NCBI GenBank assembly: GCA_900079685.1
Contig: LT599018.1
Coordinates: forward strand, 2,147,486-2,211,485
Length of the DNA stretch: 64,000 bases
Source of the DNA: an uncultured delta proteobacterium
GTDB taxonomy: Bacteria; Desulfobacterota; Desulfovibrionia; Desulfovibrionales; Desulfovibrionaceae
Direction: 5' to 3'
A program made the translations under genes and the position numbers. Each line of letters begins with the position of its first letter. Within the stretch, counting starts at the first letter, position 1. Positions 2,900 to 13,765 of the stretch are shown here, piece by piece. The notes beneath the pieces were generated by a model. It was not told the DNA's origin, made no database searches, and saw only the letters and a list, made by a program, of their open reading frames with translations.

Positions 2900-3184
2900 T
2901 TACTTCAGACCGTCGGAAAGGCCCTTGGCAACGCTGAATTTCACAGCCTTGCGAGCGGGAATGGTGATGGTCTTGCCGGTCTGGGGGTTGCGGCCCGTGC
3001 GGGCGGCGCGCTGAACAACGCTGAAGGAACCGATGCCGGGAAGGCGTACGCCTTCGCCTTTGCTTACGGCCTTGGCGAGGATCGCGCAGAAAGCATCATA
3101 CGCTTTTTCAGCACCAGCTTTGCTGGAGAACACGTCAGGAAGGGAATCTTTCATCGCGCTCACAAATTCGGCTTTCGTCATCAT
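2900..3184 (-). CDS. HU-family DNA-binding protein
   Basis: A 94-residue histone-like protein that bends DNA as a dimer in the nucleoid. It has the HU/IHF fold pattern: an N-terminal helix pair (MTKAEFVSAM...), then GVRLPGIGSFSVVQRAARTGRNP (the HU signature with the conserved GxFxxxxRxxRxGRNPxTG) and a C-terminal PARKAVKFSVAKGL. AGGAGG lies 7 bases before the ATG at 3184; a second ATG at 3181 is equally possible. The frame extends upstream to 3229, but without a ribosome site. It is monocistronic, with AT-rich DNA upstream. Confidence 0.93.
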   Translation of the reverse strand: MMTKAEFVSAMKDSLPDVFSSKAGAEKAYDAFCAILAKAVSKGEGVRLPGIGSFSVVQRAARTGRNPQTGKTITIPARKAVKFSVAKGLSDGLK

Positions 3185-3788
3185 CCTAGTTCCTCCTAAG
3201 GATATGTACCGGTTTTCCCTTACGGGCACAGCGGCGCAAACTCACCACTGTTAGTAACAGTTGACCCCTGAAACACACTCAAACGCATATTTCCCCCCGG
3301 CGTTGCATGCGTTCGCGCTGCCCCCGGAAGCAAACAATTGTTGACCGTTAGAAGCGACCTTATCAAACGGCATGGAAAAACGCCAGTTTTTGCCGCTTCA
3401 TTTCGGCATCGCCTTACTGTTTACGATGCATACTGACTTCCAGACCGCTTTGTCAACATATTCGCCAGTAAAAATTCTTGGAATTACGGCTTTTTCCAAT
3501 ACCAAATGGACATCGGGCCTTTTAGATCATTTTTTAAAATAAATTATTTCAAACAATTACTGATTTGATCCGTTCCGTACCGGCTCGTTGTATTTTTTTT
3601 CGGTATCAGAACCTTTTCGGCCCTTTTTCCGGGGAAAACCGCCGGAAACATCCGCCCGCGCCCGCGCCGCCGGTTTTTTTTGGTGCAATCCGCGCTGTTT
3701 TTTCCTATATTGCGGAGCAATAGCGCATCGTGGCGGCGTTTGCCGTTATTCAATACCGTATCCCGTACCGGACACCTGGAGAACGTTG
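3185..3788. other. AT-rich intergenic region between HU gene and regulator
   Basis: About 600 bases without a supported gene. The segment from about 3440 to 3600 is markedly AT-rich compared with the flanking genes. It must hold the promoters of the divergent HU gene (minus) and the MerR-like gene (plus). I see no clear hairpin or repeat. A long in-frame upstream extension of the plus-strand gene (to 3588) exists, but its composition is not protein-like. Confidence 0.5.
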
Positions 3789-4400
3789 ATGACGCAACAC
3801 ACGGAGCCGGAACTCCTCACCATTGCCGAGTTGGCGCGCAATCTTGACCTGCCCGAATCCACCACCCGGTATTACTGCAACCGGTTCGCCGAGCATCTGC
3901 CTTCCGTCGGCGAAGGGCGGCGGCGGCGCTTCAAACCCGAAGCCCTGGACGTTTTGCGGACCATCGCGGAAACCATGCGCCGCGACAAAAACGCCTACGC
4001 GGTGGATCTTGTTTTGCGCAACGACAGCAGCCCGCCCGCCGTTCCCGTCACCATCCCTGCCGGAGTGATGACCCAGGATCAGGGATTTGCCGCGTCCGCC
4101 GCGCTCGCGGGGCAGATGCTCTCCCTCATGGAAAACCAGACCAAGGCCCTGCAGGATATCGCCAGCGCCATGACCGTGTTCGCCGAGCGCCTCACCATTG
4201 CGCCCGGAAGGCCGGAAGCAGCGCCTCTCCCGCCGGGTTCCGGGGGTGAGACGCCGCCTTCTCAGGATGAGGCCGCCCTGCGCAGGGAGATCGCCGCCTT
4301 GCGCGAGCAGATCCGCTCCTCCGAGGACGTGCACCAGAACGACCTTGAACAACTCCGCAAATGGCTGACGCGGTTGGGCGAGGCTGTCACGGGTAAATGA
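3789..4400 (+). CDS. MerR-like helix-turn-helix protein with C-terminal coiled coil
   Basis: A 203-residue putative DNA-binding protein. Residues 9-60 (LLTIAELARNLDLPESTTRYYCNRF...RRRFKPEALDVLRTI) fit a winged HTH of the MerR/HTH_17 type. A Pro/Ala-rich linker follows. Residues about 155-203 are heptad-like (ALRREIAALREQI...DLEQLRKWL), suggesting a dimerising coiled coil. No effector domain is visible. I chose the ATG at 3789 because the HTH begins just after it. It stands alone between the HU gene and a palindromic repeat; the target is unknown. Confidence 0.75.
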   Translation: MTQHTEPELLTIAELARNLDLPESTTRYYCNRFAEHLPSVGEGRRRRFKPEALDVLRTIAETMRRDKNAYAVDLVLRNDSSPPAVPVTIPAGVMTQDQGFAASAALAGQMLSLMENQTKALQDIASAMTVFAERLTIAPGRPEAAPLPPGSGGETPPSQDEAALRREIAALREQIRSSEDVHQNDLEQLRKWLTRLGEAVTGK

Positions 4401-4609: not shown

Positions 4610-5221
4610 TCACACCATCTTGGAACAAAAATAGCGCAGAATCCGCAGATCGTCCGTCAATTCCGGGTGAAAGGCCGTCACCAGCACCGTGCGGTTCTCC
4701 GCCGCGACGATCTTCCCCTTGCATGTCGCGAGGACCGTCACGCCCTTGCCCGCGCGCTCGATATACGGCGCGCGGATAAAGACCGCCGGAACGTCCCGCC
4801 CGATGCCCTTGATGTCCAGCGGCGCCTCGAAGCTGTCCACCTGCCTGCCGAATCCGTTCCGCGACACGGCGATATCCATGATCCCCAACGGCTCGAGCGT
4901 TGCCGCGCCCTCGCCGTCCGCCCCGGTTTCGCCCGGCATGGCCCCGCCGGTGCCGGAAACCTCCGTGCCGCACAGCACAAGCCCGGCGCAGGTGCCCATG
5001 ACGCACCGCTCTCCCGCGAACCGGCGGATGGGGCCGAAAAGGCCGTTTTGGCGGATAAGGCGGCTGATGGCCGTTGACTCGCCGCCGGGTATGATAAGCC
5101 CGTCACAGCCTTCCAGGTCGAGCGGCCGCCTTACGGGCGCGCCGGCAACCCCGGCGCGCTCCAGCATGGACAAATGCTCGGACACCGCGCCTTGCAGCGC
5201 GAGAACGCCAATCCGCCGCAT
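4610..5221 (-). CDS. pdxT: Pyridoxal 5'-phosphate synthase glutaminase subunit PdxT
   Basis: A class I glutamine amidotransferase (203 aa) that releases ammonia from glutamine and passes it to PdxS in the DXP-independent PLP pathway. Visible features: IGVLALQGAVSEH at the N-terminus, the GGEST loop (47-51), the nucleophile Cys78 in GTCAG, and the His185/Glu187 pair in FHPEL. The RNGFGRQVDSF segment is also diagnostic. The ATG at 5221 directly follows the TAG of pdxS with no spacer, so the two are translationally coupled. It carries a somewhat longer Gly-rich insert (about residues 88-108) than typical members. Confidence 0.97.
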   Translation of the reverse strand: MRRIGVLALQGAVSEHLSMLERAGVAGAPVRRPLDLEGCDGLIIPGGESTAISRLIRQNGLFGPIRRFAGERCVMGTCAGLVLCGTEVSGTGGAMPGETGADGEGAATLEPLGIMDIAVSRNGFGRQVDSFEAPLDIKGIGRDVPAVFIRAPYIERAGKGVTVLATCKGKIVAAENRTVLVTAFHPELTDDLRILRYFCSKMV

Positions 5222-6109
5222 CTACCACCCCCGTTCCTGCATCCGGTCTTCGGGTGCCAGGGTCTGGATGGCAATACCGGGCATGGCGCTGCCGAGCCCT
5301 TTGGACAATTTGGCCAGCAGCGCGAAGTCGTCGTAATTGGTCACCGCCTGCACGATGGCCGTCGCGAACTTGGCCGGGTTTTCGGACTTGAAGATACCGG
5401 AACCCACAAACACGCCGTCCGCGCCGAGGAGCATCATCAGGGCGGCGTCCGCCGGGGTGGCCACGCCCCCGGCGGCAAAGTTCACCACCGGCAGCTTGCC
5501 GAGTTTTTTCACTTCGCAGACCAGTTCATAGGGCGCGCCGATATTTTTGGCGTAGGCCATCAGTTCGTCGTCGCGCAGGGCCGCCACCTGGCGGATCTGC
5601 CCGTTGACCTTGCGCATGTGGCGCACGGCTTCCACGATATTGCCGGTGCCGGGCTCGCCCTTGGTCCGCAGCATGGACGCGCCTTCGCCGATGCGGCGCA
5701 GGCCTTCGCCCAGGTCGCGGCAGCCGCAGACAAAGGGAACCGTGAACGTGCTTTTGGGGAGGTGGAACTCCTCATCCGCCGGGGTCAGCACTTCGCTCTC
5801 GTCGATATAGTCAACGCCCATAGCCTCAAGAATGCGCGCTTCCGCGATATGGCCGATGCGGGCCTTGGCCATGACCGGGATGGTCACGGCTTTCACGACC
5901 TTTTCCACGATGGTCGGGTCGGCCATCCGGGCGACGCCGCCCGCCGCGCGGATATCGGACGGCACCCGCTCCAGCGCCATGACCGCCACGGCCCCGGCGT
6001 CTTCCGCTATTTTCGCCTGTTCCGCGTTGACAACGTCCATGATGACGCCGCCCTTCTGCATCTGGGCCATGCCCCGCTTCACTCTTTCCGTGCCTGTTTT
6101 CGCCGCCAT
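5222..6109 (-). CDS. pdxS: Pyridoxal 5'-phosphate synthase subunit PdxS
   Basis: Condenses ribose 5-phosphate, glyceraldehyde 3-phosphate and ammonia to PLP; it forms dodecamers with PdxT. The protein is 295 aa. The family blocks are plain: [16 protein letters not shown] near the start, the Schiff-base Lys82 in [24 protein letters not shown], and the C-terminal [18 protein letters not shown] start at the ATG at 6109, preceded by AGGAGG; a longer frame to 6163 lacks both a ribosome site and family similarity. It forms an operon with pdxT and is divergent from the regulator gene at 6207. Confidence 0.97.
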
Positions 6110-6160
6110 GACAGCCTCCTTGTTTTCCGGCACTATCCATGGCAAAGACCGGAAAGAAAA

Positions 6161-6192
6161 CATCCAATTGGACCCTGTTTATACCATCCAAT
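6161..6192. promoter_or_regulatory. Candidate operator in the pdxS/pdxR divergent promoter region
   Basis: CATCCAAT occurs at 6161-6168 and again at 6185-6192, 24 bases apart and in the same orientation; the first copy is also part of the palindrome TCCAATTGGA. MocR/PdxR regulators are known to bind direct repeats spaced by about two helical turns upstream of pdxST. The assignment is inference from position and spacing. Confidence 0.45.
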
Positions 6193-6206: not shown

Positions 6207-7610
6207 ATGTGGCAGCTTGAACCCGGCGATGCCGCGCCGTTATATCAGCGGATTATCCGGCATATCGAGGCCGCCGTGGCAACCGGCCGCCTGGCCCCGG
6301 GCGACCGGTTGCCGCCGGAACGGGACCTGGCCCGCCTGCTCGGCGTCAACCGCTCAACGGTCATCCATGCCCTGGACGCCATGGCGGACAGGGGCGTGCT
6401 GGTCAGGAAGCGCGGCAGCGGAACCTACGTGAACAAGGAAAAATGGGGGGTGCAAACCTACGCCCGGCTCAACTGGCAGGAGCCGCCCGCCCTTTTGCCC
6501 GCCGCCAGGGATACCCCCTTCCACCGCAGGGCCGCCGTGCTCCGCCGGCAGGCCGAGCGGGACAGCGCCCTTGTTCTCCACGACCTTTCCCGCGACGACC
6601 TCTCCCCCGGCCTGCTGCCCGAGATATCCATCCCGGCCGGGTCCTGGGACGATCTGGTCCGCGCGGAACAGGGGGACGAAGCGCCGAACCTGGGCCTTAT
6701 CCCGTTCCGCCGCTCTGTGGCCCGCTTCCTGCGTGAAACCGCCGGGCTGACCGTGCCGTTCGACGATATCTGCATCACCTCGGGCTCGCGCCAGGCCGTG
6801 TTCCTCATCACCCAGTGCCTCTTAAAGGTGGGGGACGCCGTGGGCGTGGAAGCGCCCTCGTACTTTTACTCCCTGCCGGTGTTCCAGGCGGCCGGGCTGC
6901 GCCTGTACGCCCTGCCCATGGACGGGCAGGGCATCACCGTGGACGGGCTGGAGCGCCTCGTCGCCCGCCGGTCGCTGAAGATGATCTTCCTGAACCCCGT
7001 GTTCCACAACCCCACCGGCACGGTCATGACCGACGGAAGGAAAAAGGCCGTGCTTGATTTTTGCGCGGCCGCGCGCATCCCCATCGTGGAGGACGACGCG
7101 TACAGTCTGCTGGATTTCGGAACAACGGCCGGGAACAGCCCCATGAAAGCCCAGGACAAGCGGGACCAGGTGCTCTACACCGGCTCCCTGTCGAGCTACG
7201 CGGGCAGAAACATCCGGGCCGGGTGGCTGGTGGCCCCGCCGGGCATTACCGCCAAACTGGCCGCCGCCCGCCACATGATGGACGCGGGGCTCAGCGTGCT
7301 GCCGCAGCTGCTTGCCGGGGAATATCTGGAGCGCGTGGCCGCGGGCCACCTGCCGCGCCTGCGTGCGGAACTCGCCGCAAGAGCCCGCGCGCTCGCGGAT
7401 TTTCTGCGCGCGGCCTTCGGCGACAGGCTCGTGTTCGACCTGCCGCCCGGCGGCCTGTACATCTACGCCGCCATGCGGCCCGGTGACGCCAAACACTACC
7501 CGGCCATGCAGCAGGAGTTTCTGGACCACGGGATCATCCCCGCGCTCGGCGAGGAGTTCGGCGACACGCAGCCCTCATTCCGGCTGAACCACAGCCTGTT
7601 CCGGGCCTGA
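6207..7610 (+). CDS. MocR/PdxR-type GntR regulator with aminotransferase-like domain lacking the PLP lysine
   Basis: A 467-aa regulator, probably controlling the divergent pdxST operon. Residues 12-75 form a GntR winged helix (PLYQRIIRHIEAAVATGRL...RDLARLLGVNRSTV). Residues about 95-460 form a fold-type I aminotransferase domain with HNPTG and EDDAYS. The loop that normally reads S-K-x-L-x-P-x-x-R-x-G here reads S-S-Y-A-G-R-N-I-R-A-G: the PLP Schiff-base lysine is Ser330 (codon AGC at 7194-7196). The phosphate-binding Ser and Arg are kept. The ATG at 6207 is chosen because the GntR domain begins right after it. PdxR identity rests on the locus; PLP sensing by aldimine should be impossible unless PLP is bound non-covalently. 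Confidence 0.88.
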   Translation: MWQLEPGDAAPLYQRIIRHIEAAVATGRLAPGDRLPPERDLARLLGVNRSTVIHALDAMADRGVLVRKRGSGTYVNKEKWGVQTYARLNWQEPPALLPAARDTPFHRRAAVLRRQAERDSALVLHDLSRDDLSPGLLPEISIPAGSWDDLVRAEQGDEAPNLGLIPFRRSVARFLRETAGLTVPFDDICITSGSRQAVFLITQCLLKVGDAVGVEAPSYFYSLPVFQAAGLRLYALPMDGQGITVDGLERLVARRSLKMIFLNPVFHNPTGTVMTDGRKKAVLDFCAAARIPIVEDDAYSLLDFGTTAGNSPMKAQDKRDQVLYTGSLSSYAGRNIRAGWLVAPPGITAKLAAARHMMDAGLSVLPQLLAGEYLERVAAGHLPRLRAELAARARALADFLRAAFGDRLVFDLPPGGLYIYAAMRPGDAKHYPAMQQEFLDHGIIPALGEEFGDTQPSFRLNHSLFRA

Positions 7611-8698: not shown

Positions 8699-10432
8699 TC
8701 AGGCGCGCCAGGCAAAGACCATATGCCGGGCGAAGGCTTCGCCAAAGGCGGGGTCCGTGGCGAGGTCCAGGGTGGTGACGGCTTCCGCCCAGCGCGCGCA
8801 GGTCTCGCGCACGGGCCTGTATTTGAGGAAGAGCGCGGCCCCGGCCAGGGAAGTGTTGCCAACCGGAACGGTTTTATTCCCCATGCCCGGCGGCACGAAG
8901 CCCAGCCCGGTCAGGGCGGCGATCGGCGCGTGCATGCCGAGGGAACCGGCAAGGCAGACGCGGGTCAGCCGCGCCGCCGGGATGGCCGCCTCCCGTAAAA
9001 GATGCGAAACCGCCAGCGTGAAGGACGCCTTGACCTTGAGGATCTCCTCCACGTCCGAGGCGAAGAGCGCCATCCTGCCCGGCAAGCGGATGCTTCTTTC
9101 CCCCATCCGGGCCTCCATTCCGGTCCCTGTCCCGGCCCCCTCGTCCCCGCCCAGCTTGCGGGCCAGAGGCGTGCCGTCCTTCGCGGCGAACAGGCCGTCC
9201 TCGGAAAGAATGCCGGATGCCCGCAACGCCCGCAGCAGGGACAAATAGCCCGTGGCGGTGATGCCCCCCGTGGCTGTAATGCCCCCTTCCGTAGGCGAGC
9301 CGCCCCCCATGACCACGGGTTCCAGGCCGCGCGGCGTGAGCGCGTATTCCGTGACCGCGCCGGGCACGGCTTCGCTGCCGTAGGCCAGGTTGATGCCCTC
9401 CAGGGCCGGGCCCATGGGCAGGCTCGCGGCCAGGGCCTCATGCGGGGAAAGGGCCAGCACGCACTCGCCGTTGGTGCCGAGATCCGCCAGCAGAAACGGG
9501 AATTCCGGGGCCGGGCCCAGGGCCGCATCCGGGTCCAGGACCAGAGCCGCGTACCCGGCGCTCACGTCCCCGCCCACGAACGGCGCGATGAGCGGCGGGA
9601 TGTACACCGGCGGCAAACCGGCCACGGCCGCCTCCCGGTTGCCGGGGCACGGCAGGGCATACGGGGCGCGGGCCAGGGAGCGGGTGTCGCAGCCCAGAAA
9701 AATGCCGGTCATGGCCGGGTTGGCGGCCGCGCACAGTTCCTCCACGCAATACCCTTCCACGCTGGCCGCCGCGACGGTTGCCGCGAGAGCCGCCGTTACC
9801 AGGCCGCCGAGAGTTTCCGTGCCGCCTTCCCGCGCGGCATAGGCGATGCGGGAGATCACGTCGCTCCCCGCGCCCATCTGCGGGTTGGTCATAATCCCGT
9901 GGGGCAGACCGGCGTTATCCGCCCGGTCATCCGCCCGGCCGTCAAGAGTCACGACCCGCCAGTGGATGGACGTCGTGCCCAGGTCCACGGCCAGGCCGAA
10001 ACGGCCCGCGCGAGGCTCCGCGCCTGTTGCCGCGCCTGCTGCCGCCCGCCGCGCGGGCAGGGCCGGAACCAGCACATGCGCGCCTTCTTCCGGCGCGCGG
10101 CGGCAGGCGAGCCGCCAACCCGCGTCCAGGTCGTGGTGGGAAAGAACCGCCCTTTCCGCGTCCAGCGGGAGCGGCGGCGCGGACAAAAAACGCACCCGGC
10201 AGAGGCCGCAGCGGCCCAGCCCCGAGCACAGGGCGGGCGGGGCGAAAAAGCCGGAAAGATACAGACTCTGGGCAAGGGTCGCGCCCGTGACGGGAAGGGC
10301 CGTGTCCGCGAACCCGGCGGGCGGTGCCGCGCCCAGGACCGCCCCGCCGGAAAGATCGCGGAAGTTCCGGGCGGAAAACGGCGGGAACGGGGTGTTCCCT
10401 TGGGTTCTGTGGCGGACGGTTATGGTCGGCAT
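8699..10432 (-). CDS. RACo-like corrinoid activation protein: [2Fe-2S] ferredoxin domain plus ASKHA ATPase (DUF4445 type)
   Basis: A 577-aa protein. The N-terminal domain has Cys69, Cys75, Cys78 and Cys110, the C-x5-C-x2-C...C pattern of plant-type [2Fe-2S] ferredoxins. It continues with an ASKHA-type ATPase region: GLAVDLGTTSIHWRV near residue 145, a second LADLGTNGEC block, and a C-terminal LAGSLGMHAPIAALTGLGF. This is the architecture of reductive activators of corrinoid proteins, which use ATP to reduce Co(II) to Co(I). The ATG at 10432 has GGAG upstream. No corrinoid protein or methyltransferase lies in the window, so its client is elsewhere. Codon use is very GC-rich. Confidence 0.85.
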   Translation of the reverse strand: MPTITVRHRTQGNTPFPPFSARNFRDLSGGAVLGAAPPAGFADTALPVTGATLAQSLYLSGFFAPPALCSGLGRCGLCRVRFLSAPPLPLDAERAVLSHHDLDAGWRLACRRAPEEGAHVLVPALPARRAAAGAATGAEPRAGRFGLAVDLGTTSIHWRVVTLDGRADDRADNAGLPHGIMTNPQMGAGSDVISRIAYAAREGGTETLGGLVTAALAATVAAASVEGYCVEELCAAANPAMTGIFLGCDTRSLARAPYALPCPGNREAAVAGLPPVYIPPLIAPFVGGDVSAGYAALVLDPDAALGPAPEFPFLLADLGTNGECVLALSPHEALAASLPMGPALEGINLAYGSEAVPGAVTEYALTPRGLEPVVMGGGSPTEGGITATGGITATGYLSLLRALRASGILSEDGLFAAKDGTPLARKLGGDEGAGTGTGMEARMGERSIRLPGRMALFASDVEEILKVKASFTLAVSHLLREAAIPAARLTRVCLAGSLGMHAPIAALTGLGFVPPGMGNKTVPVGNTSLAGAALFLKYRPVRETCARWAEAVTTLDLATDPAFGEAFARHMVFAWRA

Positions 10433-10568
10433 GGCTGCGGCTCCGTTATCTGGCGGTCCCAAAGGACGCCAGAGCATATGCCAGCTTGCACGGTTAGGCA
10501 ACGTGACCGTCTTAACGCCCAGGGCGGGCGCATCTTAATTTCATTGCGTCGCGCGGCATTACAAGACA

Positions 10569-10910: not shown

Positions 10911-11891
10911 ATGAACAAAATTTTGGCGCAGGACGAAGTTGATGCCCTGCTCAGGGGCCTTTCCGGCGGGGAAATAGATTCCAGCACCGACGAGCCTGTT
11001 GATGATTCCGGCATCGTGCCCTTTGACCTTGCCAACCAGGACAGGATCATCCGGGGCCGCATGCCTGTTCTGGAAATCGTCAACGACCGGTTTTCCCGGC
11101 TCTACACCAACACCCTGTCCAACATCGTCCGCAAACGCGTGGAAGTGAACCCCATTTCCATCGACATGACCAAGTTCGGCGATTTCATGCGCACGCTCCC
11201 CGTGCCCACGAGCATCAATATTTTCAAAATGGACCCGTTGCGCGGCAACGCCATCATCGTGGTGGACGCGCGGCTGGTCTTCGCCCTGGTGGAAAGCTTT
11301 TTCGGCGGCCAGGGCACCCAGCCCAAAATCGAGGGCCGCGAATTCACGCCCATCGAACAGACCATCGTCAACAAGGTCGTCAAAATCGCGCTGGAAAAAA
11401 TGGAGGAATCCTGGCGGCCCGTGCACGACGTGAGCATGGAACTGGTCCGCTCGGAGATCAACCCGCAGTTCGCGGCCATCGTGCCGCCGTCGGACGTGGT
11501 CATCGTCATCACCTTCGAGGTCGAGCTGGAGACGGCCATCGGCTCCATGACCATGTGCCTGCCCTACGCCACCATCGAACCCATCCGTTCCAAGCTCCTG
11601 GCCAGCTTCCAGACCGAACGGCTGGAAGTGGACCACGCCTGGGTGGCCCGGCTGAAAGAGCGGCTCCTGGAAACGCCCGTGGAACTCAAGGTCCGGTTCG
11701 GGGATTCCAAAATTACCAGTAACCAGCTGCTCCGCCTGAAAATAGGCGACGTCATCATGCTCGATACCGACACCGACGACCTGCTCGAATGCTCCATCGC
11801 CGGGATTACCAAATTCTGGGGCATCGCGGGCCAGGTCAAAAGCAACCGCGCCTTCCAGATCATCAACGAGGAAGAACCCAAGACCACATAG
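10911..11891 (+). CDS. fliM: Flagellar motor switch protein FliM
   Basis: A component of the C-ring that binds CheY-P and sets rotation direction. The length of 326 aa is normal. The N-terminus has the CheY-binding stretch ILAQDEVDALLRGLSGG (ILSQxEIDALL in the family), the middle domain begins LANQDRIIRGRMPVLEIVNDRF, and residues about 250-326 form the SpoA domain (VELKVRFGDSKITSNQLLRLKIGDVIML). It is not within a flagellar operon here: the flanking genes are metabolic. The expected FliG/FliN partners are outside the window. Confidence 0.97.
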   Translation: MNKILAQDEVDALLRGLSGGEIDSSTDEPVDDSGIVPFDLANQDRIIRGRMPVLEIVNDRFSRLYTNTLSNIVRKRVEVNPISIDMTKFGDFMRTLPVPTSINIFKMDPLRGNAIIVVDARLVFALVESFFGGQGTQPKIEGREFTPIEQTIVNKVVKIALEKMEESWRPVHDVSMELVRSEINPQFAAIVPPSDVVIVITFEVELETAIGSMTMCLPYATIEPIRSKLLASFQTERLEVDHAWVARLKERLLETPVELKVRFGDSKITSNQLLRLKIGDVIMLDTDTDDLLECSIAGITKFWGIAGQVKSNRAFQIINEEEPKTT

Positions 11892-11974: not shown

Positions 11975-12065
11975 GCTGGACTTTTCCGCCGGTAAACCGT
12001 ACATAATGCAGATTAGGACTGCTCCGCCATTTCCGGTGGGATCTGATGCAAAAAGGATACGCACG

Positions 12066-12851
12066 ATGCTGACAATGAACACGATAACCTATGAAAAACG
12101 CGGGCATATCGGGCTATTGACCATCAACCGCCCCAAGGCCATGAACGCCTTCAACAATGAGGTGGTCACGGAAGTTTACGTTTGTCTCGAATCCCTCGTG
12201 AACACGGACATCCGGTGTCTCATCGTCACGGGGTCCGGTGAGAAAGCGTTCGTGGCGGGCGCGGACATCCGGGAAATGCAGTACCTCAACCCCTCCCAGG
12301 CCGCTGCCTTCAGCCGGGCGGGCAACGCCGTCATGGCGCTGCTGGAGGATTTCCCCGTGCCCATCATCGCGGCCATCAACGGCTATGCCATGGGCGGCGG
12401 GTGCGAGCTGGCGCTCTCCTGCGATATCCGCATCGCCTCGGAAAACGCCGTGTTCTCCTTCCCGGAGGTTGGCCTCGGCATCATTCCCGGGTTCGGCGGC
12501 GCGCAGCGGCTCGCGCGCATTATCGGCATCGGCAAAGCCAAGGAACTCATCTACACCACCAACCGCATCAACGCGGCGGACGCGCTGACCGTGGGGCTCG
12601 TCAACGCGGTGTACCCGCAGGAACAGCTCCTCGACAAATGCCTGGAAATGGCTGAAAAAATCGCGTCCAACGCGCCCACCGCCGTGCGGGTGGCCAAGGG
12701 CGTCATCAACAAAAGCATGGGCATGGAACTGCACCAGAGCTACGGTCTGGAAGTGCTGCCCTTCAGCACCTGCTTCCTGACCAGCGACCGCCAGATGGCC
12801 ATGGACGCCTTCGTGGACAAGCGCCCGAAAGACGCGTTCACCGGGAAGTAA
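12066..12851 (+). CDS. Enoyl-CoA hydratase (crotonase family)
   Basis: Adds water across 2-enoyl-CoA, for example crotonyl-CoA to 3-hydroxybutyryl-CoA. The 261-aa length is usual for a single-domain crotonase. The oxyanion-hole block [27 protein letters not shown] with the first catalytic Glu, and [14 protein letters not shown] with the second are all present; the C-terminus ends [15 protein letters not shown] start at the ATG at 12066 (AAGGAT upstream); another ATG lies 9 bases on. It pairs with the dehydrogenase at 12929, giving two adjacent beta-oxidation/butyrate steps. No thiolase or acyl-CoA dehydrogenase is nearby. Confidence 0.92.
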
Positions 12852-12928
12852 TGCCTCCTGGCTGGGTTGGGGCAGCGCCCCAATTTTCGAAAGGACAACA
12901 TCCCAATAAGACTCTCAAAGGAGTTTAT

Positions 12929-13765
12929 ATGAAAGTAGGAATCCTCGGGGCCGGAACCATGGGCGCGGGCATCGCGCAGGCGTTCGCCGCGGCGGACGGA
13001 TACGAAGTCATCCTCTGCGACCTGAACCGGGAAGCGGCCCAGAAGGGCATTGACCGCATGAAGGCCAAGCTGGAAAAAACCGTGGCCAAGGGCCGCATGG
13101 AACAGAAAGAGGCGGACGCGATCATGGCCTCCGTCACGGCCGGGGAACACGGGGATCTTTGCGAATGCGAACTCATCGTCGAGGCCGCCATCGAGAACAT
13201 GGAGATCAAGAAAAAGCTGTTCGCGGACCTTACCACAAGTTGCGTGGCCAACGTGATCTTCGCCACCAACACCTCGTCGCTGTCCATTACGGAACTGGGG
13301 CGCGGGCTGCTGCGGCCGGTTATCGGCATGCATTTCTTCAACCCGGCGGAAACCCTTAAATTAGTGGAAGTCATCGCCGGGCTGCACACGCCGCGGGAAG
13401 TCATTGACCGCGTGACCGCCATTGCCAGGGATATCGGCAAAGTTCCCGTGGAAGTGCAGGATTCCGCCGGGTTCGTGGTCAACCGCATCCTCATACCCAT
13501 GATTAACGAAGCGGTCTGCGTGCTGGCCGAAGGCGTGGCCAGCGCGAAAGACATCGACGAAGCCATGAAGCTGGGCGCGAGCCACCCCATGGGCCCCCTG
13601 GCGCTGGGCGACCTGATCGGCCTGGACGTGTGCCTTGCCATCATGGAAGTGCTGCACACGGAAACCGGCGACGGCAAATACCGCCCCCACCCGCTCATGC
13701 GCAAAATGGTGCGCGGCGGCATGCTGGGCCGGAAAACCGGCAAGGGATTTTTCGAGTATTCGTAA
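12929..13765 (+). CDS. 3-hydroxybutyryl-CoA (3-hydroxyacyl-CoA) dehydrogenase
   Basis: Oxidises L-3-hydroxyacyl-CoA with NAD(P), or runs in reverse in butyrate synthesis. The protein is 278 aa. Rossmann fingerprint [11 protein letters not shown] at residues 7-17, catalytic His in GMHFFNPA, then the dimerisation/catalytic domain starting [18 protein letters not shown], and the C-terminal ending [17 protein letters not shown] precedes the ATG. It lies 77 bases after the crotonase gene on the same strand and before a strong terminator, so the two are an operon. Context does not decide between fatty-acid breakdown and butyrate formation. Confidence 0.93.

Follow-up and report, generated by a model that had tools for sequence, protein, structure and literature searches.

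A MocR regulator of the PdxR lineage with serine at the Schiff-base lysine position in Desulfovibrionaceae

The closest described relatives of the regulator considered here are PdxR proteins. PdxR of the L. monocytogenes type is described as having a GntR–AAT architecture and a gene divergent from pdxST (PMC5320631), and our locus has both features likewise. According to the same source, the characterized apo-PdxRs activate pdxST with PLP as an anti-activator, and PdxR of Bacillus clausii is a PLP-sensing pdxST activator (PMC5320631). Structures of the latter are 7zla, 7zn5 and 7zpa; 7pq9 and 7zth have the same sequence. EnuR and GabR also share the two-domain architecture of our regulator, but their mechanism requires a covalent PLP–lysine link. 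Loss of the Schiff-base lysine with retention of the fold is known among fold type I proteins from serine palmitoyltransferase LCB1 and from ColD; unlike our regulator, these are not transcription factors and have other roles. Within the MocR proteins, Lys312 is reported to be conserved across all clusters (PMC6677901), and the lysine of EnuR is reported in 278 of 278 cases (PMC8739950). In the literature searched, to which Belitsky 2014 and Tramonti 2015 did not belong, we recognized no description of a natural lysine-less MocR.

The regulator, its PLP loop and its pdxST target

The window analyzed here is a stretch of DNA of 64,000 nucleotides. It carries on the + strand the gene of a lysine-less PdxR-type MocR regulator of 467 residues (6207–7607, stop codon 7608–7610), as delimited by its open reading frame, Pfam domains and an AlphaFold2 model. 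The N-terminal GntR winged helix–turn–helix domain (residues 12–75; 6240–6431, + strand) scores 65.3 bits against a cut-off of 27 (PF00392, E 4e-18), and the C-terminal fold type I aminotransferase-like sensor domain (residues 163–459; 6693–7583, + strand) scores 78.1 bits against 19.7 (PF00155, Aminotran_1_2, E 9e-22). The model has a mean pLDDT of 83.8 and falls below 50 at residues 80–99 only. Its fold resembles those of GabR, B. clausii PdxR and PLP aminotransferases in Foldseek and VIA-align, comparisons that speak for the fold alone: the best Foldseek match is GabR 4n0b (E 1.3e-27), B. clausii PdxR 7zpa follows the fold with E 3.3e-25 at 19% identity in the structural alignment, and VIA-align superposes 359 residues on 3aov with a Z score of 40.0 and an rmsd of 2.6. 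The best NCBIfam family is the PdxR equivalog NF052282, at 233.4 bits and thus short of the cut-off of 320; since the lysine-bearing proteins of L078 (Listeria) and L065 also fall below it (285.1 and 279.3 bits), this model does not discriminate here.

The PLP loop, located by sequence and alignment, extends from L328 to G339 (7188–7223, + strand) and includes Ser329, Ser330 and the phosphate-binding Arg337; with its flank it reads G326-S-L-S329-S330-Y-A-G-R-N-I-R337-A-G339. A first-pass annotation of this DNA had proposed a full GntR–aminotransferase MocR architecture divergent from pdxST, with serine at the lysine position, and both proposals are borne out, the former by the Pfam domains and the layout of the reading frames, and the latter by the window sequence and the orthologue alignment, in which Ser330 (AGC, 7194–7196, + strand) occupies column 404. 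HNPTG (267–271), EDDAY (295–299), Ser327/Ser329 and Arg337 are all present, as it had also stated. The spacing given there, S-S-(x)7-R, needs correction to S-S-(x)6-R, and the lysine-bearing relatives read S-K-(x)6-R.

The regulator gene adjoins and diverges from pdxST on the − strand, which comprises the pdxS reading frame (5222–6163, likely start at 6109; Pfam SOR_SNZ, E 6e-106) and pdxT (4610–5221; Pfam SNO, E 5e-55). In the pdxR–pdxS interval lies a predicted PdxR operator, CCAATTGG-N16-CCAAT (6164–6192, strand not assigned), a direct repeat 24 bp apart with a palindromic first half. The pattern CCAATTGG-(about 16)-CCAAT between regulator and pdxS is common to the pdxST-linked lineages, lysine-bearing PdxR loci included. 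Counted anywhere in the locus, with near-duplicates included and the window left outside, it occurs among pdxST loci at 26/27 that lack the lysine and at 67/69 that have it; among loci with no pdxS in the stretch examined, it occurs at 26/66 with the lysine and at 1/5 without. By chance 0.04 occurrences would be expected in the window. The 4.0-Mb genome has no second copy of the pattern, and the regulon therefore probably consists of pdxST plus the regulator itself. Listeria loci L077 and L082 have the same operator as the window regulator; the named Listeria loci, among which L. monocytogenes does not figure, differ in the loop, with GSLSK or GSFSK in 8/8 at 39–43% identity.

Seven of the nine Desulfovibrionaceae genomes with the lysine-less regulator have it beside pdxS, and in the other two the contig that carries it (7.6 and 9.7 kb) includes no pdxS. 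In L063 (Desulfovibrio sp. MAG), where pdxST is not alongside, the 9.7-kb contig also encodes an IS110 transposase and a phage integrase. In Desulfovibrio cuneatus DSM 11391 (L044, 5780–6010) the second operator half is degenerate, and pdxT gave no tblastn match in the stretches L044 and L040. Regarding the alternative B6 gene pdxJ, it is present in 137 of the 288 Desulfovibrionaceae genomes and was found in none of the nine genomes with a lysine-less orthologue, some of which are incomplete (74–98%); pdxST is therefore probably their sole de novo B6 route. Elsewhere in the window are a RACo-type corrinoid activation protein with C-terminal and middle domains in Pfam (8702–10501, − strand) and, directly past fliM (10911–11888), an enoyl-CoA hydratase followed by a 3-hydroxyacyl-CoA dehydrogenase (12057–13762, + strand).

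Distribution and origin of the lysine-less regulators

Serine is found at the site in 9/9 Desulfovibrionaceae orthologue genomes, the window included, at identities down to 51%. Among 59 genomes, that of the window included, there are three strong orthologues (identities of 74, 54 and 52%), each with GSLSSY in the loop, and the 27 weaker matches among those listed, at most about 30% identical and at least two of them plain aminotransferases, all have the S-K motif. When 288 Desulfovibrionaceae genomes were scanned, ten gave a match with an E value of at most 1e-60. Nine of these, counting the window, are the lysine-less orthologue; the tenth (L099) is another MocR with Lys, 31% identical to the window regulator and with no pdxST within its 1.5-kb flanks. 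Ser330 is neither a sequence error nor a strain mutation, because all nine orthologue genomes have it; the first-pass annotation had named lysine in close relatives as the sign of such an error. Its view that plain decay is less likely can be put more firmly: decay is very unlikely given the conserved operator, the lack of internal stops in the ten family matches and a dN/dS of about 0.2 between the window and L042 (NG86; dN 0.179, dS 0.984). Nine other lysine-less pairs give about 0.03–0.20 and four lysine-bearing pairs with defined dS give 0.07–0.10; several of the dS values in this comparison approach saturation. The lysine-less regulator genes are thus under purifying selection.

A scan of genome contigs with two degenerate patterns, TYVNxEKW and [VI]E[AM]PSYFY, returned 48 relatives; because it rested on these two patterns, the scan may have overlooked lysine-less relatives at a greater distance. 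Eight are Desulfovibrionaceae-type loci with Ser, four belong to Lactobacillaceae and have Pro (twice), Thr or Met, and the remaining 36 have Lys, including Trichococcus, Alkalibacterium, Marinilactibacillus, Listeria and two Pseudomonadota records (L048, Enterobacterales; L065, Martelella alba). We then compared even samples of larger groups, reading the site residue at 30 loci and 19 further stretches in an order-level scan, at 30 and 19 in Lactobacillaceae, and at seven loci in the order of L065. Among 397 Lactobacillaceae genomes, 87 gave a match with an E value of at most 1e-90. The best 21 loci (L150–L170, three from the same genomes as L084, L088 and L089) have no Lys at the site, which is Ser, Thr, Pro, Met or Glu, and pdxS adjoins 19 of them. 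Ser is also found in L175, whose gene is truncated; the remaining eight loci (L171–L174, L176–L179) have Lys and no pdxST within 1.5-kb flanks, and the 19 further stretches, none with pdxS, have Lys in 18 and Leu in one (L187). Two relatives with Thr (L157 and L160, genomes G765 and G747) have neither pdxST nor the operator in their 1.5-kb flanks; the gene adjoining the former encodes an FGGY carbohydrate kinase. The order-level scan gave Lys in 29/29 loci besides L088's own gene and in 19/19 further stretches, and in the order of L065 all seven loci, one of which repeats L065, have Lys beside pdxS.

From 168 collected proteins (loci L016 and L034 yielded none), 105 rows were kept, each of at least 440 residues and one per group of at least 85% identity sharing the site residue. 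Column 404 has Lys in 79 of them and another residue in 26 (S18, T2, P2, E2, M1, L1). The tree was built from 94 rows with the site column excluded; 11 distant lysine-bearing Desulfovibrionales rows were dropped and L200–L206 stand outside it. It requires two changes between Lys and non-Lys. The eight Desulfovibrionaceae rows form a clade (SH-aLRT 92, below the 95 mark), sister to two Pseudomonadota Lys rows (joint SH-aLRT 99) and joined with these and Carnobacteriaceae at 100, so that the window regulator is nested among lysine-bearing, pdxST-linked regulators. A separate clade (SH-aLRT 99) holds the 18 Lactobacillaceae rows that lack the lysine. These values come from a short search with SH-aLRT as the only support measure, a long L187 branch (1.67) and an outgroup that does not fall on one side of a branch, and the program flagged the letter composition of the window row and of 22 further rows as odd. 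A single clade of all 26 lysine-less rows is rejected (delta lnL 122, p-AU 1.8e-17). The serine codons differ as well, being AGC or AGT in 9/9 Desulfovibrionaceae rows and TCN in 14/14 Lactobacillaceae Ser rows. From the two changes, the rejected single clade and the codons, we infer that the lysine was lost twice, separately in Desulfovibrionaceae and Lactobacillaceae. In the Desulfovibrionaceae orthologues the loss is fixed, and they descend from a lysine-bearing PdxR. The window regulator therefore belongs to the PdxR lineage by descent, target and operator, and is a non-canonical MocR by the lysine criterion.

The PLP pocket and its possible mode of sensing

To compare the pocket between lineages, we assigned residue roles by alignment with aminotransferases, taking the positions to act as they do in aspartate aminotransferase. 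D296 and Y299 of EDDAY (7092–7103, + strand) align with the positions of the pyridine-nitrogen Asp and the O3′ Tyr. Asn268, Ser329 and Arg337 are kept in 26/26 lysine-less tree rows, and Tyr219 and Asp296 in 25/26, the exception being L187. With that row left out, Gly193, Tyr219, Asn268, Asp296, Ser329 and Arg337 are kept in 8/8 Desulfovibrionaceae and 17/17 Lactobacillaceae rows, Ser192 in 8/8 and 15/17 (two Ala), and residue 327 is Ser with one Thr. Over the 62 columns that are at least 95% conserved among 28 lysine-bearing pdxST-linked rows, the consensus is kept at 0.953 in pocket columns against 0.91 in the others in Desulfovibrionaceae, and at 0.985 against 0.882 in Lactobacillaceae. Hypergeometric P values for the retention are 4e-4 and 3e-3. 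Such retention is not proof of a ligand, the pocket columns being of our own choosing and structural as well.

Two pocket positions vary. Tyr299 is replaced by Leu, Phe or His in 17/17 Lactobacillaceae rows and by Ser in one of eight Desulfovibrionaceae rows, and is Phe in 10/28 lysine-bearing rows. Arg459, presumably the contact of the amino-acid carboxylate in the enzymes, is Ser or Cys in two of seven readable Desulfovibrionaceae rows. PLP alone may need neither, since lysine-bearing rows also vary at Tyr299 and the role of Arg459 concerns the carboxylate. A lysine elsewhere, which the first-pass annotation had considered, did not emerge as a clade-specific substitute at residues 60–462: a screen of this range for Lys, Arg, His or Cys present in at least 7/8 Desulfovibrionaceae rows and fewer than 30% of the 28 lysine-bearing rows returned only Arg176, Arg254 and Arg255. 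The phosphate-binding loop (residues 191–196, 6777–6794) reads TSGSRQ. Arg195 is present in 5/8 Desulfovibrionaceae rows, where 27/28 lysine-bearing rows have Gln; it is possible that it adds charge at the phosphate and offsets the lost covalent link, though not universally.

Judged on sequence, we consider it fairly probable that the protein is a working regulator of the divergent pdxST in which the internal aldimine no longer forms and PLP or PMP is read non-covalently. By likeness to characterized PdxRs, the predicted dimer would bind the pdxR–pdxS operator, activate pdxST when PLP is scarce and repress its own gene. Entry of PLP, possibly PMP, into the pocket would turn pdxST activation off. 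PMP needs no aldehyde. The ligand would be held solely through its phosphate (Ser192–Gly193 loop, Ser327/329, Arg337), its ring (Tyr219) and its pyridine nitrogen (Asp296). Loss of the Schiff base should lower affinity and speed release, making a weaker, faster-reversing sensor, so that a higher level of free PLP would be needed to turn pdxST off. That a lysine-less pocket may still hold the cofactor is suggested by K258A aspartate aminotransferase, which is reported to be rescued by added amines (PMC12018205).

The main rival to non-covalent sensing is a constitutive, PLP-blind activator locked in the apo form, with pdxST always on and only autorepression left. EnuR Lys302His is reported to have lost PLP and become a constitutive repressor (PMC8739950), so sensing can disappear with the lysine, and the activator in the characterized cases is apo-PdxR (PMC5320631). 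The variable site in Lactobacillaceae, which tolerates even Pro and Glu, agrees with this, as does L187 (genome G1001, 2941–4362, − strand), which has Leu at the lysine site, lacks further pocket residues (Asp296 to Gly, Tyr219 to Ser), still has the same operator pattern and adjoins an ECF transporter substrate component. The same locus is a natural contrast, indicating from its sequence that the pocket can be lost. The pocket of a PLP-blind regulator should drift in this way, whereas Asp296, Tyr219 and Arg337 are invariant in 8/8 and 17/17 rows of the two lineages, and we regard constitutive action as unlikely.

A change of ligand, in which the pocket reads another phosphorylated B6 compound or a PLP–amino-acid adduct instead of free PLP, appears improbable. 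The phosphate and pyridine contact positions would suit it, and neither PMP, PNP nor an external aldimine needs the lysine. However, the operator and the pdxST target are unchanged, the neighborhood offers no hint of a new ligand, and the Arg459 position expected to hold a substrate carboxylate is lost in some rows, as noted above. Sequence error, strain mutation or a pseudogene has a negligible chance, refuted as it is by serine in the orthologues, the uninterrupted reading frames and purifying selection. As read from the alignments, retention of the PLP contacts in two lineages favors non-covalent binding over another ligand or constitutive action.

In summary, descriptions of MocR regulators base their PLP dependence on an aldimine with a lysine, and two lineages here are without that lysine, though most of the pocket, the operator and the target remain. 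These lineages are natural mutants for asking whether PdxR must bind PLP covalently or whether occupancy of the pocket is enough, and lysine-less PdxRs are candidate non-covalent PLP sensors. Tentatively, each of the two losses may have made PdxR a non-covalent receptor for B6 phosphates, tuned to higher free PLP or to PMP. If so, a transcription factor with the cofactor pocket of an enzyme would bind that cofactor reversibly, like any other ligand.
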